From Gemmobacter aquatilis (GTDB lineage: Bacteria > Pseudomonadota > Alphaproteobacteria > Rhodobacterales > Rhodobacteraceae), in contig NZ_FOCE01000002.1 of the NCBI RefSeq assembly GCF_900110025.1, positions 1 through 64,000 of the forward strand: a stretch of 64,000 nucleotides of DNA. Reading direction: 5' to 3'. The notes beneath the pieces are model-generated. The model saw only the letters and a list, made by a program, of their open reading frames with translations. It was not told the origin of the DNA and searched no databases. A program made the translations under genes and the position numbers. Below are positions 1-17,730 of the stretch, in pieces (the first letter of the stretch is position 1; every line of letters begins with the position of its first letter).

Positions 1-34
1 TTCTGGGCATCGAACCAAGCACAAGGCCGAACCG

Positions 35-1400: not shown

Positions 1401-1475
<75 letters not shown>

Positions 1476-13072: not shown

Positions 13073-13789
13073 ATGGAAGAGCCGCACGATACCGCCCACC
13101 GCAAACGCGGCCTGCTCGCCGGGCTGCGGGCCAGTTTTCTGACCGGGCTTGTCGTGGTGCTGCCCATCGGCCTGACCATCTATCTGGTCTATACCGTGGT
13201 CGGCTGGATCGACGGCTGGATCCTGCCGGTGATCCCCTGGGGCTGGCGGCCCGATCAACTGGTGGCCTATTACCTTGGCCCCGACGCCAATTTCCCGACG
13301 CGCGGGCTCGGCGTCATCGTCTTTCTGGTGTTCACCATCATCGTGGGCTGGATCGCCAAGGGCCTGATCGGGCGCTCCATCCTCGCACAGGCCGAGGCGC
13401 TGGTAGACCGGATGCCGGTCGTCCGCTCGGTCTATGGCGGGTTCAAGCAGATCACCGAAACCTTCTTCGCCAAATCCGAGAAAAGCTTCGATCGCACCTG
13501 CCTTGTCGAATTCCCCCGCCCCGGCAGTTGGGCCGTGGGTTTCGTCGCCACAACCGCCAAGGGCGAGATTGCGGCGAAACTGCCCAGCGACAAGAAGATG
13601 ATCGCGGTTTTCGTGGCGCTGACGCCACTGACCTCGGGCATCCTGCTGTTCGTGCCGGAAGAGGACGTGATCTTCCTCGACATGAAGGCGGATGATGCGG
13701 TGAAGCTGATCGTATCGGCCGGGCTGGTCTCGCCCGGCACGAAAGAGGTGCAGGGGCTGCTAGCCGAACAGCCCGCGCAGATCGACTGA
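13073..13789 (+). CDS. DUF502 family membrane protein
   Basis: A 238-residue protein of the DUF502 family. Two hydrophobic segments follow an Arg-rich cytoplasmic start: roughly residues 20-42 (FLTGLVVVLPIGLTIYLVY) and 78-98 (LGVIVFLVFTIIVGWIA). The conserved motif RMPVVRSVYGGFKQITETF follows. Biochemical function is not established for the family. The ATG at 13073 has AGGAG six bases upstream. Its 3' end overlaps the converging patatin gene by 30 bases. Confidence 0.88.
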   Translation: MEEPHDTAHRKRGLLAGLRASFLTGLVVVLPIGLTIYLVYTVVGWIDGWILPVIPWGWRPDQLVAYYLGPDANFPTRGLGVIVFLVFTIIVGWIAKGLIGRSILAQAEALVDRMPVVRSVYGGFKQITETFFAKSEKSFDRTCLVEFPRPGSWAVGFVATTAKGEIAAKLPSDKKMIAVFVALTPLTSGILLFVPEEDVIFLDMKADDAVKLIVSAGLVSPGTKEVQGLLAEQPAQID

Positions 13790-14791
13790 GCTGCGCTGCC
13801 CCAGATCCTGCCGGTGCTGGCGCAGGAACCGCGCCGCCGCCTGCTGCCCCGCCTCGCGCAGTCGCGCGATCATGCCCGGCGCCGGGGTCAGCTTGCTGGA
13901 GGCATCCAGCTCGTTCATCAGCGCATCGTCGGCAATGACATGGACATTCAGATCCTTCATCGTCCCCTGCGGCATCCGCCCCTCGGCCAACAGCCGCTTG
14001 ACGAAATTCACCGCCCGCAATTCGCCCAGCAGCGCCGAGTTGAAGCTGATCTCATTGATCCGGTTCTGAATTTCTACCGGCGTTACCGGCAGATCTTCGC
14101 GCCGCAGCGGGTTGATCGACACGATCACGATGTCATCGGGCAGATGCGGCTGATACAGCGGAAACAGCGCGGGATTGCCGGAATAGCCGCCATCCCAGAA
14201 GACTTCCTGCCGCCCCGTCGCCGGATCGCGCAATTCCACCGCCTGAAACACCGTCGGCAGGCAGGCCGAGGCCAGCAGCACTGCGGGCGAAATCTCGTCG
14301 CCCGCAAACACCCGGATCTTGCCCGACCGCACATTGGTAGCCGAGATGAACAGATCCGGCCCCTGCTTTGCGCAGATGCGGGTGAAATCGAACCGCGCCA
14401 CCACCTCGTTCAGCGGGTTCTGCCAGAACGGCCCCCAAGCATAAGGCGTATAGACCTGCGCGGCCATCGCGGCGGGGGACACCGGCATGTTCGCCGCCAT
14501 CGCCTCGGCCATGGCCGTGGTCATCGGGAAGGCCGCGCTCAGCCAGCGCGCCACCCGCAGATCCCCCAGCGCACTGACCCGGCCCCAAAGCCGGGCGAGG
14601 TTGTCCACCGCCCCGACCTTGCCGCCCTCGATCAGCCCCATCTTCAGCGCCGCCGCGTTCAGCGCCCCGGCCGAGGTGCCGGAAATCCCGGCAATCTCGA
14701 TCTCCGGCTCTTCCAGCAGCCGTTCCAGCACGCCCCAGGTAAAGGCGCCATGCGCGCCCCCACCTTGCAGCGCCAGATTGATCCGCAGCAT
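13760..14791 (-). CDS. patatin-like phospholipase
   Basis: A 343-residue serine lipase of the patatin family. It shows the oxyanion-hole motif LQGGGAHGAFTWG (residues 9-20), the nucleophile Ser40 in GTSAG, and the second catalytic residue Asp200 in WDGGYSGNP. The substrate is likely a lipid ester or polyhydroxybutyrate-associated lipid. The start ATG overlaps the bdhA stop (TGATG), so both are one operon. Patatin proteins next to bdhA recur in PHB-producing alphaproteobacteria, which fits a role in storage polymer turnover, though that is inference. Confidence 0.9.
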   Translation of the reverse strand: MLRINLALQGGGAHGAFTWGVLERLLEEPEIEIAGISGTSAGALNAAALKMGLIEGGKVGAVDNLARLWGRVSALGDLRVARWLSAAFPMTTAMAEAMAANMPVSPAAMAAQVYTPYAWGPFWQNPLNEVVARFDFTRICAKQGPDLFISATNVRSGKIRVFAGDEISPAVLLASACLPTVFQAVELRDPATGRQEVFWDGGYSGNPALFPLYQPHLPDDIVIVSINPLRREDLPVTPVEIQNRINEISFNSALLGELRAVNFVKRLLAEGRMPQGTMKDLNVHVIADDALMNELDASSKLTPAPGMIARLREAGQQAAARFLRQHRQDLGQRSSVDLRGLFG

Positions 14792-15564
14792 CAAAGCGCC
14801 GTCCAGCCGCCGTCCACGCTGATCGTGGTGCCGGTGATCTGCTCTGCCGCGCCCGAACACAGGAAGACAACGGTGCCGCCCAGTTGTTCCGTGGTCGCGA
14901 ACTGCTTTGACGGTTGGCGCTGCAACAGCACGTCGCGCACCACCGTCTCGCGGTCCATGTTGTATTGCTTCATCGTGTCGGGGATCTGCGCCTCGACCAG
15001 CGGGGTCAGCACATAGCCGGGGCAGATTGCGTTGCAGGTGATGCCCTTGCCCGCCACTTCCAGCGCAACCGTCTTGGTCAGGCCCACCACCCCATGCTTG
15101 GCCGCCACATAGGCCGATTTGAACGGCGAGGCGGTCAGACCATGCGCCGAGGCGATGTTGATCACCCGCCCCCAGCCCGCAGCCTTCATTCCCGGCAGCG
15201 CGGCGGCCGTGGTGTGAAAGGCCGAAGACAGGTTGATGGCAATGATCGCGTTCCACTTGTCCACCGGGAAATCCTCGATGGCGGCGACGTGCTGGATGCC
15301 TGCATTGTTCACCAGAATGTCGCAGCCCCCGGCCTTTTCCACCAGCGCGCGGCACGCGTCGCCATTCGACATGTCGGCGGCGATGTAGCGCACGCTCACC
15401 CCATGGTCTGCCGCGATCTTCGCCGCCAGCGCGTGATCTTCGTCGCGGTCGGTAAAGCTGTTGATCACCACCTCGGCGCCCGCCTTCGCCAGCTCTTCCG
15501 CAACACCCAGCCCGATGCCGGAATTGGAGCCGGTGACGATGGCGCGTTTGCCCTTCAGGGTCAT
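14791..15564 (-). CDS. bdhA: D-3-hydroxybutyrate dehydrogenase
   Basis: NAD-dependent short-chain dehydrogenase that oxidises D-3-hydroxybutyrate to acetoacetate, the step after polyhydroxybutyrate depolymerisation. The 257-residue protein carries TGSNSGIGLG for NAD, NNAGIQHV, and the catalytic Ser139, Tyr152 and Lys156 (SAYVAAKHG). QHV, HGLTASPFKSAY and the C-terminal SVDGGW are typical of BdhA. The start at 15564 is chosen because the fold begins three residues later; the upstream extension is not conserved-looking. First gene of the bdhA-patatin operon. Confidence 0.92.
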   Translation of the reverse strand: MTLKGKRAIVTGSNSGIGLGVAEELAKAGAEVVINSFTDRDEDHALAAKIAADHGVSVRYIAADMSNGDACRALVEKAGGCDILVNNAGIQHVAAIEDFPVDKWNAIIAINLSSAFHTTAAALPGMKAAGWGRVINIASAHGLTASPFKSAYVAAKHGVVGLTKTVALEVAGKGITCNAICPGYVLTPLVEAQIPDTMKQYNMDRETVVRDVLLQRQPSKQFATTEQLGGTVVFLCSGAAEQITGTTISVDGGWTAL

Positions 15565-15725
15565 GTCTGATCTCCGGTTATGAATTTGCGATACCATAAG
15601 ACGCGCCGCGCCGGATGACAGCCCCATCTTGCCGCACCCTGCACATGGGCCGAAAACCCGCCCCGCGCCCTTTGCAAACCGCCCGCGCTTTGCGCATTGC
15701 CGCCCGTAAAACAGGCGGCCGAACC

Positions 15726-15754
15726 AAAAAAAACGCCGGCGCGAAGCCGGCGTT
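15726..15754 (-). terminator. terminator of the candidate small RNA
   Basis: A perfect 9-bp stem (15732-15740 with 15746-15754), a 5-base loop and, on the minus strand, eight T residues. There is no upstream protein gene on this strand before the divergent gene at 15916. Confidence 0.9.
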
Positions 15755-15801
15755 AAGTCGTTGAGGCAGGTTTCATACAGGCAAGAAACCTATCGAGCAG
15801 T
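15726..15801 (-). ncRNA. candidate small RNA (about 76 nt) with its own promoter and terminator
   Basis: On the minus strand a strong promoter (TTGGAT, 17 bp, TATAAG; 15808-15836) points into a short interval that ends in a textbook intrinsic terminator. Initiation near 15801 would make a transcript of about 76 bases. It contains a 7-bp hairpin AGGTTTC/GAAACCT with loop TTGCCTGTAT, a single-stranded linker (TGCCTCAACGAC), and the terminator hairpin. No minus-strand gene ends here that would otherwise need this terminator, and no ORF of note lies within. I do not recognise it as a known RNA family. Confidence 0.6.
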
Positions 15802-15807
15802 GAAACC

Positions 15808-15836
15808 CTTATACCCCTCTGCGCGCTTCGATCCAA
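15808..15836 (-). promoter_or_regulatory. promoter of the candidate small RNA
   Basis: The -35 box TTGGAT lies at 15831-15836 and the -10 box TATAAG at 15808-15813 on the minus strand, with exactly 17 bp between them. Confidence 0.6.
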
Positions 15837-15915
15837 GTTAAAAGTTTGAAAAGGCTCAAAAGCCGTCTTAGTGTCCAACCCAAGAAAAACAGGCGAACAA
15901 AGGATTGTTGCGCGG

Positions 15916-17730
15916 ATGAGACAGGACTTTTTCAGCACGATGCGCAGAATCGGGATGATCGCGGGGCTTGCGCTTCTCGCATCTCCAGTCTTGAGCGACT
16001 CACCTGAACACGCCATAGCTATGTATGGTGAACCGGCCCTCCCACCGGATTTTGTGTCTCTGCCCTATGCCAACCCCGAAGCGCCCAAGGGTGGCCAGAT
16101 CGTGTTCGGCGAGGCGGGCGGGTTCGACAGCCTCAACCCCTATATCGTGAAGGGCAACGCGCCCTCGCAGATCACGCCCTTCACCGTCGAAACCCTGATG
16201 GGGCGCAGTCTGGACGAACCGTTCACGCTTTATGGCCTGCTGGCCGAATCAATCCAGACTGACGCGGCGCGCAGTTATGTGGCCTTCACGCTGCGCGAAA
16301 ATGCCCGATTCTCTGATGGATCGCCGGTCACTCCCGAAGATGTGATCTGGTCGTTCGAGACGTTGGGCACCCAAGGGCAGCCGCGCTATGCTACCGCCTG
16401 GCGCAAGATCGCCAGCGCCGAGATCACCGGCCCGCGTAGCGTGAAATTCACCTTCAACGTGCAAGACCGGGAACTGCCGCTGATCCTCGGCCTGCGCCCG
16501 ATCCTGAAAAAGGCGCAATGGGCGGGCAAGGATTTCACCGCCTCGTCGCTGGAAGCGCCGATAGGGTCCGGCCCCTATGTCGTCGATACGTTCGAGCCGG
16601 GCCGCTTCATTGCGTTCCGCCGCAACCCCGATTGGTGGGGCAAGGATCTGCCGTTCAACCGTGGCCTCTATAATGCCGACACGCTGCGCGTCGAATATTT
16701 CGGCGTGGATACCGCGCTGTTCGAGGCGTTCAAGGGCGGCGCGATTTCCAGTTTCCGCGAATTGAACCCGGCGAAATGGGCCGCGAATTACGATTTCCCC
16801 GCCGTTGCCGCAGGCGATGTGGTGAAAGAAGAAATCCCGCATGGCCGCCCATCGGGGATCGAAGGCTTTGCCTTCAACACCCGCAACCCGCTGTTCGCCG
16901 ACTGGCGCGTGCGCGAGGCGCTGATCCATGCCTTCAACTTCGAACTGGTGAACCAGACGCTGAACGGCGGGGTGCAGCCGCGCATCACCTCGTATTTCTC
17001 CAACTCCGCGCTGGGGATGGAGCCGGGCAAACCGGCCGAGGGCCGGGTGAAGGACTTGCTCACCCCTTTCGCCGCCGATCTGCTGCCCGGCGCGCTGGAC
17101 GGCTACACCCTGCCGGTGTCCGATGGCAGCGAGGCCAACCGCAAGAACATCCGCACCGCCACCAAACTGCTGGCCGAGGCCGGGTGGACGGTGCAGGACG
17201 GTGTGCTGAAAAACGCCGCAGGCCAGCCCTTCGCCTTTGAAATCCTGCTGACCCAGGGCCAGGACGAGATGATCTCTGCCGCCGCGATCTATGTGGAATC
17301 GCTCAAACGGCTGGGCATCGACGCCCGCATCACCACGGTGGACAATGCGCAATACAAAGAGCGCACCAATGCCTACAGCTTCGACATGACCCATTACATC
17401 CGCGCCCTGACCCCCTCGCCGGGGAACGAGCAGATGCTGTATTGGGGCGCGAAAGGCGTGACCGAACCGGGCACCCGCAACTGGCCCGGCATCAACTCCC
17501 CTGCTGCCGAGGCGATGATTTCCGCCATGCTGACCGCCCCCGATACGCAAGAATTCGCCGCTGCGACGCAGGCGCTCGATCGGGTGCTGACAACGGGTAG
17601 ATATGTGATTCCGGTGTGGTATTCTCGGGTCTCACGGCTCGCCTACCGCAAAGAGCTTCACCACCCTGCCCGCCTGCCGCTGTATGGTGACTGGCCGGGC
17701 TGGATGCCGGATGCGTGGTGGGTCGAGTAA
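15916..17730 (+). CDS. YejA-like extracellular peptide-binding protein (SBP family 5)
   Basis: A 604-residue periplasmic solute-binding protein for oligopeptides or microcin-like peptides. An N-terminal signal peptide is visible (MRRIGMIAGLALLASPVLS). The family 5 pattern follows: YANPEAPKGGQIVFGEAGGFDSLNPY, FTLRENARFSDGSPVTPEDVIWSF, and GSGPYVV...FRRNPDWWGKD. These blocks match YejA-type proteins. Starts at 15916 and 15940 are both possible; 15916 is closer to an AAAGGA box. No permease or ATPase genes adjoin, so the cognate transporter is elsewhere. An entericidin gene follows. Confidence 0.9.
   Translation: MRQDFFSTMRRIGMIAGLALLASPVLSDSPEHAIAMYGEPALPPDFVSLPYANPEAPKGGQIVFGEAGGFDSLNPYIVKGNAPSQITPFTVETLMGRSLDEPFTLYGLLAESIQTDAARSYVAFTLRENARFSDGSPVTPEDVIWSFETLGTQGQPRYATAWRKIASAEITGPRSVKFTFNVQDRELPLILGLRPILKKAQWAGKDFTASSLEAPIGSGPYVVDTFEPGRFIAFRRNPDWWGKDLPFNRGLYNADTLRVEYFGVDTALFEAFKGGAISSFRELNPAKWAANYDFPAVAAGDVVKEEIPHGRPSGIEGFAFNTRNPLFADWRVREALIHAFNFELVNQTLNGGVQPRITSYFSNSALGMEPGKPAEGRVKDLLTPFAADLLPGALDGYTLPVSDGSEANRKNIRTATKLLAEAGWTVQDGVLKNAAGQPFAFEILLTQGQDEMISAAAIYVESLKRLGIDARITTVDNAQYKERTNAYSFDMTHYIRALTPSPGNEQMLYWGAKGVTEPGTRNWPGINSPAAEAMISAMLTAPDTQEFAAATQALDRVLTTGRYVIPVWYSRVSRLAYRKELHHPARLPLYGDWPGWMPDAWWVE

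Follow-up and report, generated by a model that had tools for sequence, protein, structure and literature searches.

Does the minus strand near 15.75 kb of this DNA carry a genuine gene for a small RNA (sRNA), as an earlier note had proposed, and what would such an RNA do? The window, that is, the whole stretch of 64,000 nt that was analysed, was compared with related genomes. The unannotated RNA of about 76 bases proposed in that note is borne out by conservation across genomes sampled from the order, and a real, free-standing minus-strand sRNA gene with its own promoter and terminator is strongly supported by the compared sequences. We accept the gene as real because of this conservation, which decides the matter, evidence from the single sequence being modest.

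Features of the Locus

The following features of the locus and its two neighbours are used below.

14791 to 15564, minus strand: 3-hydroxybutyrate dehydrogenase gene, starting 161 nt past the sRNA end (TIGR01963, 367.7 bits, over the cut-off)
15726 to 15801, minus strand: sRNA gene, predicted transcript of about 76 nt (sequence, fold, and conservation as one unit)
15726 to 15731, minus strand: terminal U run, a possible Hfq site (sequence)
15732 to 15754, minus strand: intrinsic terminator hairpin, 9 bp (fold and covarying pairs)
15755 to 15766, minus strand: single-stranded linker (fold)
15767 to 15774, minus strand: first stem, 3' arm (fold and alignment)
15775 to 15784, minus strand: 10-nt loop UUGCCUGUAU, a candidate seed (fold and variation in divergent loci)
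15785 to 15792, minus strand: first stem, 5' arm (fold and alignment)
15808 to 15813, minus strand: -10 element TATAAG, 17 nt from TTGGAT
15831 to 15836, minus strand: -35 element TTGGAT
15837 to 15852, minus strand: conserved block upstream of the -35 element, TTTTCAAACTTTTAAC here and CAAACTTTTAGC typically (column conservation)
15916 to 17730, plus strand: divergent gene of solute-binding protein family 5 (SBP_bac_5; PF00496, E 1.7e-61)

The predicted sRNA, ACTGCTCGATAGGTTTCTTGCCTGTATGAAACCTGCCTCAACGACTTAACGCCGGCTTCGCGCCGGCGTTTTTTTT, begins at 15801 on the minus strand, seven bases past TATAAG, and ends at 15726. Its +1 at about 15801 was placed from the -10 spacing and from the start of a block that is invariant among homologues, the onset of which coincides with the predicted transcript start. 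The RNA folds better than shuffled sequences (z of -3.3), with 1 of 200 shuffles as good. For the first hairpin, the 7-bp stem of the earlier note corresponds to seven Watson-Crick pairs, to which the fold adds one U-G pair, giving eight; the single-stranded linker described there is present in the computed fold. Linker and stem end together form CCUGCCUCAA, a candidate for the main seed.

Distribution among Genomes

Of 149 genomes sampled from the family (the genome of the window included), 146 were matched in a BLAST search with 161 bases, and the three genomes missed are 74, 90, and 73% complete. There was one match per genome except in G098 and G130, each of which has a second weak match. 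These second copies (L201 and L202, respectively) were rejected, because, with the covariance model R1 (built from an alignment of 40 sequences), L202 scores 18.9 bits and L201 is not matched at E 1, and the linker is kept in neither. The regions concerned (L202:537-593 and about position 3015 of L201) resemble degenerate partial copies of the sRNA, possibly decayed duplicates or chance similarities.

R1 matched all of the 149 genomes sampled from the order (73 genera) with one copy each; all 149 belong to the family of the window, and the sample is thus no test of other families of the order. Within one genus (that of G023), 124 of 125 genomes were matched, the match in G752 being weaker and shorter and the single genome missed being 71% complete. 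When a class sample of 385 genomes, whose share of the family is not stated, was searched, seven genomes matched, five of them of the window's family at E about 1e-22. The other two matches (L209 and L210, E 2e-4 and 6e-4), both outside the family, were rejected, since the terminator and scattered flanking bases align and most of the first hairpin is missing; apart from these terminator-only cases, the class sample contained no match outside the family. By this comparison of sequences, the sRNA is to be regarded as ancient within its family and very strongly constrained.

For position-by-position analysis, we compiled 148 loci carrying an exact 25-nt core (30 from BLAST and at least 118 from a scan of named contigs, the two sets coming partly from the same genomes). 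RNA positions 1 to 40 are identical in all 148 core-selected loci among the matches listed, which represent 111 distinct transcripts, and 15 of these 40 bases lay outside the 25-nt selection pattern. Because this set was chosen by the core itself, 20 places from the weak end of the BLAST list were fetched separately, two of which are L201 and L202, leaving 18 homologous loci. Positions 1 to 40 are intact in 12 of these 18, and changes in the loop, lower stem, or 5' end are found in six (L184, L185, L188, L190, L192, and L197). The linker sequence GAAACCTGCCTCA is intact in 18 of 18, the six changed ones included. The loop TTGCCTGTAT, which the earlier note had emphasized, is conserved, but the linker looks the better conserved of the two. 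UGCCU is present in loop and linker alike, its loop copy being altered in L190, and could, judging from its letters, cover AGGCA-type ribosome-binding sites. A constraint on 40 nt, paired and unpaired, exceeds what a seed of 7–9 nt usually needs. Since its first 40 bases are almost unchanged across Rhodobacterales, the sRNA is very probably a real regulator.

Promoter and Terminator

A promoter close to consensus and a strong terminator with eight T residues had been claimed for the RNA. TTGGAT agrees with TTGACA at three of six positions and TATAAG with TATAAT at five of six, and a strict consensus scan of 14500-17500 found no promoter; the same-region scan found one terminator, against a shuffle mean of 2.7. 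On the consensus scan alone, neither promoter nor terminator is beyond chance. Both are beyond chance because they are conserved across loci, and so TTGGAT-17-TATAAG stands as the promoter, its spacing conserved, while the consensus wording was too strong.

The survey covered 136 non-redundant core-selected loci among the matches listed. TTG and TAT separated by 16–18 nt, at the correct distance from the conserved block, were found in 129 of 136 of these listed loci (exactly 17 nt in 120); as controls, 79 of 13600 mononucleotide shuffles had the pattern, and so did 1 of 680 offset positions. It fails in seven loci (L041, L049, L056, L068, L107, L115, and L130). Among the 129 promoter-bearing loci, again among the matches listed, the -10 element is TATAAA in 78, TATAAG in 16, and TATAAC in 10. 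Mean column identity in the 136 listed loci is 0.49 at -120 to -61, 0.69 at -60 to -37, 0.64 at -36 to -1, 1.0 at +1 to +40, and 0.32 at +90 to +150. The block at 15837-15852 could be an UP-like element or a regulator site. Its CAAACTTTTAGC form is common to most, though not all, lineages.

The intrinsic terminator is kept in all 136 loci among the matches listed. All eight T residues are present in the window; two of them are able to pair into the terminator stem, which leaves six. The earlier note had regarded loss of promoter and terminator in relatives that keep the flanking genes as evidence against an sRNA; the sRNA passed this check, promoter and terminator being present in 129 and 136, respectively, of the 136 listed loci. 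Covariation was computed on an alignment of 40 rows. Seven pairs of the terminator stem have two-sided changes (34 cells), with a covariation score reached by 0 of 500 shuffles; for another measure, the number of further pair types, 54 of 500 shuffles reach the observed value. The first stem is invariant throughout this alignment, and because it never varies, covariation neither supports nor opposes it.

Concerning the sigma factor, passages of one study of the RpoH paralogues of R. sphaeroides give TTG at -35 for both, T at -9 as critical for RpoHI, and, for RpoHII, A at -12 as essential with C-14 and T-13 over-represented (PMC3441632). With the +1 moved one base later (15800), the present promoter has TTG at -36 to -34, T-13, and A-12; its base at -9, however, is A, and that at -14 is G. 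Because these bases differ from the reported RpoHI requirement, RpoHI is unlikely to be the sigma factor for the sRNA promoter, and either RpoHII or the housekeeping sigma factor is possible.

Gene Neighborhood

The divergent peptide-binding protein gene mentioned in the earlier note is the SBP_bac_5 gene, for which no NCBIfam model scored over its cut-off. Of the 144 core-selected loci with enough flank, 137 have a gene of this family no more than 400 nt upstream, and 109 of 139 have the dehydrogenase gene no more than 700 nt downstream, both among the matches listed; some neighbours recorded as absent may reflect short flanks. The RNA is retained in six loci (L038, L045, L056, L061, L068, and L115) where the search turned up neither of these two genes. 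The dehydrogenase gene is adjoined by a gene for a patatin-like phospholipase (13763-14794, PF01734), whose match to a CBASS lipase model is weak and far below the cut-off.

Comparison with Known RNAs

Rfam 15 was searched over the window, and no family reached its gathering score at the sRNA locus. The sole match over a gathering score within the window is a tRNA gene (1404-1475, minus strand). The same kind of search on five homologue loci yielded three matches with E values up to 0.1, all of which fell short of the gathering score. The weak matches at the locus are BjrC1505, SorX, and mmgR, and what they have in common with it is layout and terminator.

SorX (RF02784, R. sphaeroides) resembles the sRNA in length, 5' hairpin, linker, and U-tailed terminator, with a weak match over the full length (22.1 bits). 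The score is below the gathering score of 46.6, however, the sRNA does not have the CCUCCC linker of the SorX consensus, and the genome of the window has a SorX match elsewhere (73.9 bits); identity with SorX was thus rejected. The SorX-like RNAs of this genome are a tandem pair, L149 and L151 (G000:C13:13839-14034), and L150 (G000:C25:152315-152376); the three scores are 73.9, 44.3, and 44.9 bits, of which the first alone passes the cut-off of 46.6, and two weaker matches score 32.5 and 27.3.

The mmgR/suhB RNA (RF00519) has a similar layout and also matches at 22.1 bits. mmgR affects PHB granules, and the sRNA, for its part, sits beside a hydroxybutyrate dehydrogenase gene. The sRNA is nevertheless below the 41-bit cut-off of that family and has no CCUCCC motif, and since the whole genome contains no mmgR match at E 0.001, this identity was also rejected.

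StsR (RSs0827) of R. sphaeroides has been described as an sRNA of 72 nt and comes from the same bacterial group (PMC8307010), and its probe sequence is given in part of another article (PMC11354728). It was rejected because the probe has no complement in the sRNA and matches G051 once, at another locus with different surrounding sequence: the probe site is at 858 kb, whereas the sRNA copy is at 1444 kb of the same contig. RSs1624 is placed at 1724.5 kb, possibly in another assembly version, in an excerpt of a further article (PMC6238624). The copy in G051, a genome that we infer to be R. sphaeroides 2.4.1, occupies C4, 1443995-1444071, on the minus strand, and its predicted 5' end is the A of ACTGCTCG.

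RSs numbers rise with position, and interpolation between RSs0827 (858 kb) and RSs1624 (1724.5 kb) puts the sRNA near RSs1366, with an error of about 30 numbers as checked with PcrZ (presumably RSs2430) and with assembly versions that may differ. RSs1368 is said to be the name of an R. sphaeroides sRNA from Berghoff et al. 2009; our literature search did not find this name. From the interpolated position and this name, the sRNA may be a catalogued yet unstudied RNA of R. sphaeroides. It may also be contained in a master list of 79 sRNAs of this species, 38 of them orphans (PMC8625941).

Two RNAs of P. denitrificans, "Intergenic 60" (80 nt, 120000-175052 reads) and "Intergenic 134" (84 nt), could be compared by description only, as given in extracts of the report (PMC5107571). 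They are similar in size and conserved across Rhodobacteraceae, but their conservation lists in these extracts name taxa outside the order, where the sRNA was not found in our class sample (PMC5107571). A literature search did not find the sRNA characterised, a statement that covers "uncharacterised" and not "undetected", and a text search with the sRNA's own letters returned, among the matches listed, no title on Rhodobacterales sRNAs. Its transcript has probably been picked up earlier, under a number or without a name. GcvB and AbcR are conserved, multi-target sRNAs near ABC-transporter genes, and they could be analogues of the sRNA in function.

Possible Action and Targets

A free-standing Rhodobacterales sRNA gene encoding a putative Hfq-type regulator that acts in trans is, taken as a whole, the probable explanation of the locus. 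As to the mode of action, an Hfq-type trans-acting base-pairing regulator is most likely because of the U-tailed terminator, the free linker, and the conserved loop. RNA polymerase would start at about 15801 on the minus strand from the RNA's own promoter, of housekeeping or possibly RpoHII type, and would end transcription at the intrinsic terminator, so that the released product is about 76 nt long. The U tail would then bind Hfq, and the unpaired CCUGCCUCA linker would pair in trans with several mRNAs, with help from the GCCU loop and from the ACUGCUCG tail at the 5' end, so that translation or decay of these mRNAs may be altered. Hfq binding is plausible for the sRNA because many sRNAs including StsR are Hfq-associated (PMC8307010) and hfq is described as ranking with the best conserved genes in the Roseobacter clade (PMC4809877).

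The layout is consistent with the typical trans-acting one named in the earlier note, but three crude searches for mRNA targets (neighbouring genes, an anti-linker pattern by ATG in 26 genomes, and an 11-nt anti-linker in 41 genomes) gave no positive result. For the neighbours, sRNA duplex energies, computed without accessibility, had at the start regions a median z of 0.15 for the divergent SBP gene (132 regions), -0.24 for the dehydrogenase (116), 0.71 for the patatin gene (68), and 0.05 for DUF502 (49). The pattern TTGAGGCA-N(1..14)-ATG had 443 sites in 26 genomes versus 60 for the reversed pattern, which is not a composition-matched control, and the excess is probably due to composition. 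Sites in 30 loci from this search and in 60 stretches from four genomes (G000, G010, G013, and G005) were examined; among the matches listed, 29 of 104 site/start combinations have a frame of at least 70 aa, and cross-matches are confined to a single locus or to a site present in two copies.

The 11-nt anti-linker TTGAGGCAGGT was searched in 41 genomes, and 30 loci and 69 stretches were inspected, the sRNA gene itself being left out. One family came up in 12 genomes, and two further families came up in a pair of genomes each (L377 with L424, and L404 with L415). The 12-genome family was rejected as a target because the sRNA agrees in sense with its coding strand, the anti-linker being antisense to a GTCLNVGCI motif, which we take to be the active site of dihydrolipoyl-dehydrogenase-type proteins. 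The sRNA segment ACCTGCCTCAA equals, in the same sense, the DNA coding for TCLN of this motif (L338, L344, L376, and nine other loci), probably by coincidence. Complements of the linker with up to two mismatches in the genome of the window numbered 96 (the sRNA gene included) versus 29 for the reversed sequence, too noisy to be used.

An RNA whose main partner is a protein, or another sRNA that it sponges, would also fit the failure of these searches to find mRNA targets, and it would fit a sequence that is fixed in the stem and loop as well as in the tail (no difference at any of the 40 positions in the 148 core-selected loci among the matches listed, and none in 12 of 18 weak ones). We regard this as unlikely, though it is the rival that survives best, since hairpin, linker, and U-tailed terminator form the layout of ordinary base-pairing sRNAs, and loop and lower stem vary in divergent members whereas the linker does not.

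An improbable alternative is a cis role on the divergent solute-binding gene, in which the upstream block and shared promoter region would coordinate both genes and the RNA would be secondary. That gene is the most constant neighbour (137/144, among the matches listed) and the block CAAACTTTTAGCTTGGA is conserved; yet the most conserved part is the transcript and not the promoter (1.0 versus 0.64-0.69 in core-selected loci, among the matches listed), and the RNA is kept in 7 of 144 listed loci without that neighbour, one of which, L086, has a flank of 273 nt only.

Still less probable is a 5' leader or attenuator of the 3-hydroxybutyrate dehydrogenase gene. Although the latter is on the same strand, begins 161 nt past the terminator, and is no more than 700 nt away in 109 of 139 loci among the matches listed, the RNA is kept in the other 30 of these 139, some with short flanks, and the sequence after the terminator is unconserved (0.32). 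A tiny peptide (ATGAAACCTGCCTCA..., MKPAS...) has hardly any chance, and we rejected this mini-ORF and treat the sRNA as non-coding: an ATG and MKPAS codons are present, with a 7-codon frame in 72 of 136 loci among the matches listed, but the frame can be as short as 5 or as long as 58 codons, L185, L190, and L192 have no ATG, a stop comes after it in L184, no ribosome site is well placed by eye, and the core-selected loci have no synonymous changes.

Implications for the Rhodobacterales

Together with the preferred reading of a trans-acting base-pairing sRNA, we tentatively raise a broader possibility, which we think rather less than even: that the sRNA acts as a core riboregulator throughout the Rhodobacterales, with a single copy in practically every genome, and that its fixed sequence of 40 nt may serve several partners at once (mRNAs by way of linker and loop, plus a protein or a second RNA), with a rank perhaps similar to that of GcvB or 6S RNA elsewhere. 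To our knowledge, few bacterial sRNAs are this conserved across an order.

Because no Rfam threshold is reached, annotation based on Rfam misses the sRNA, and model R1 would annotate it. The Rhodobacterales include the marine Roseobacter group, Rhodobacter, and Paracoccus. Since the BLAST match alone spans 146 genera, work on one laboratory strain would inform on a regulator of well over a hundred genera.
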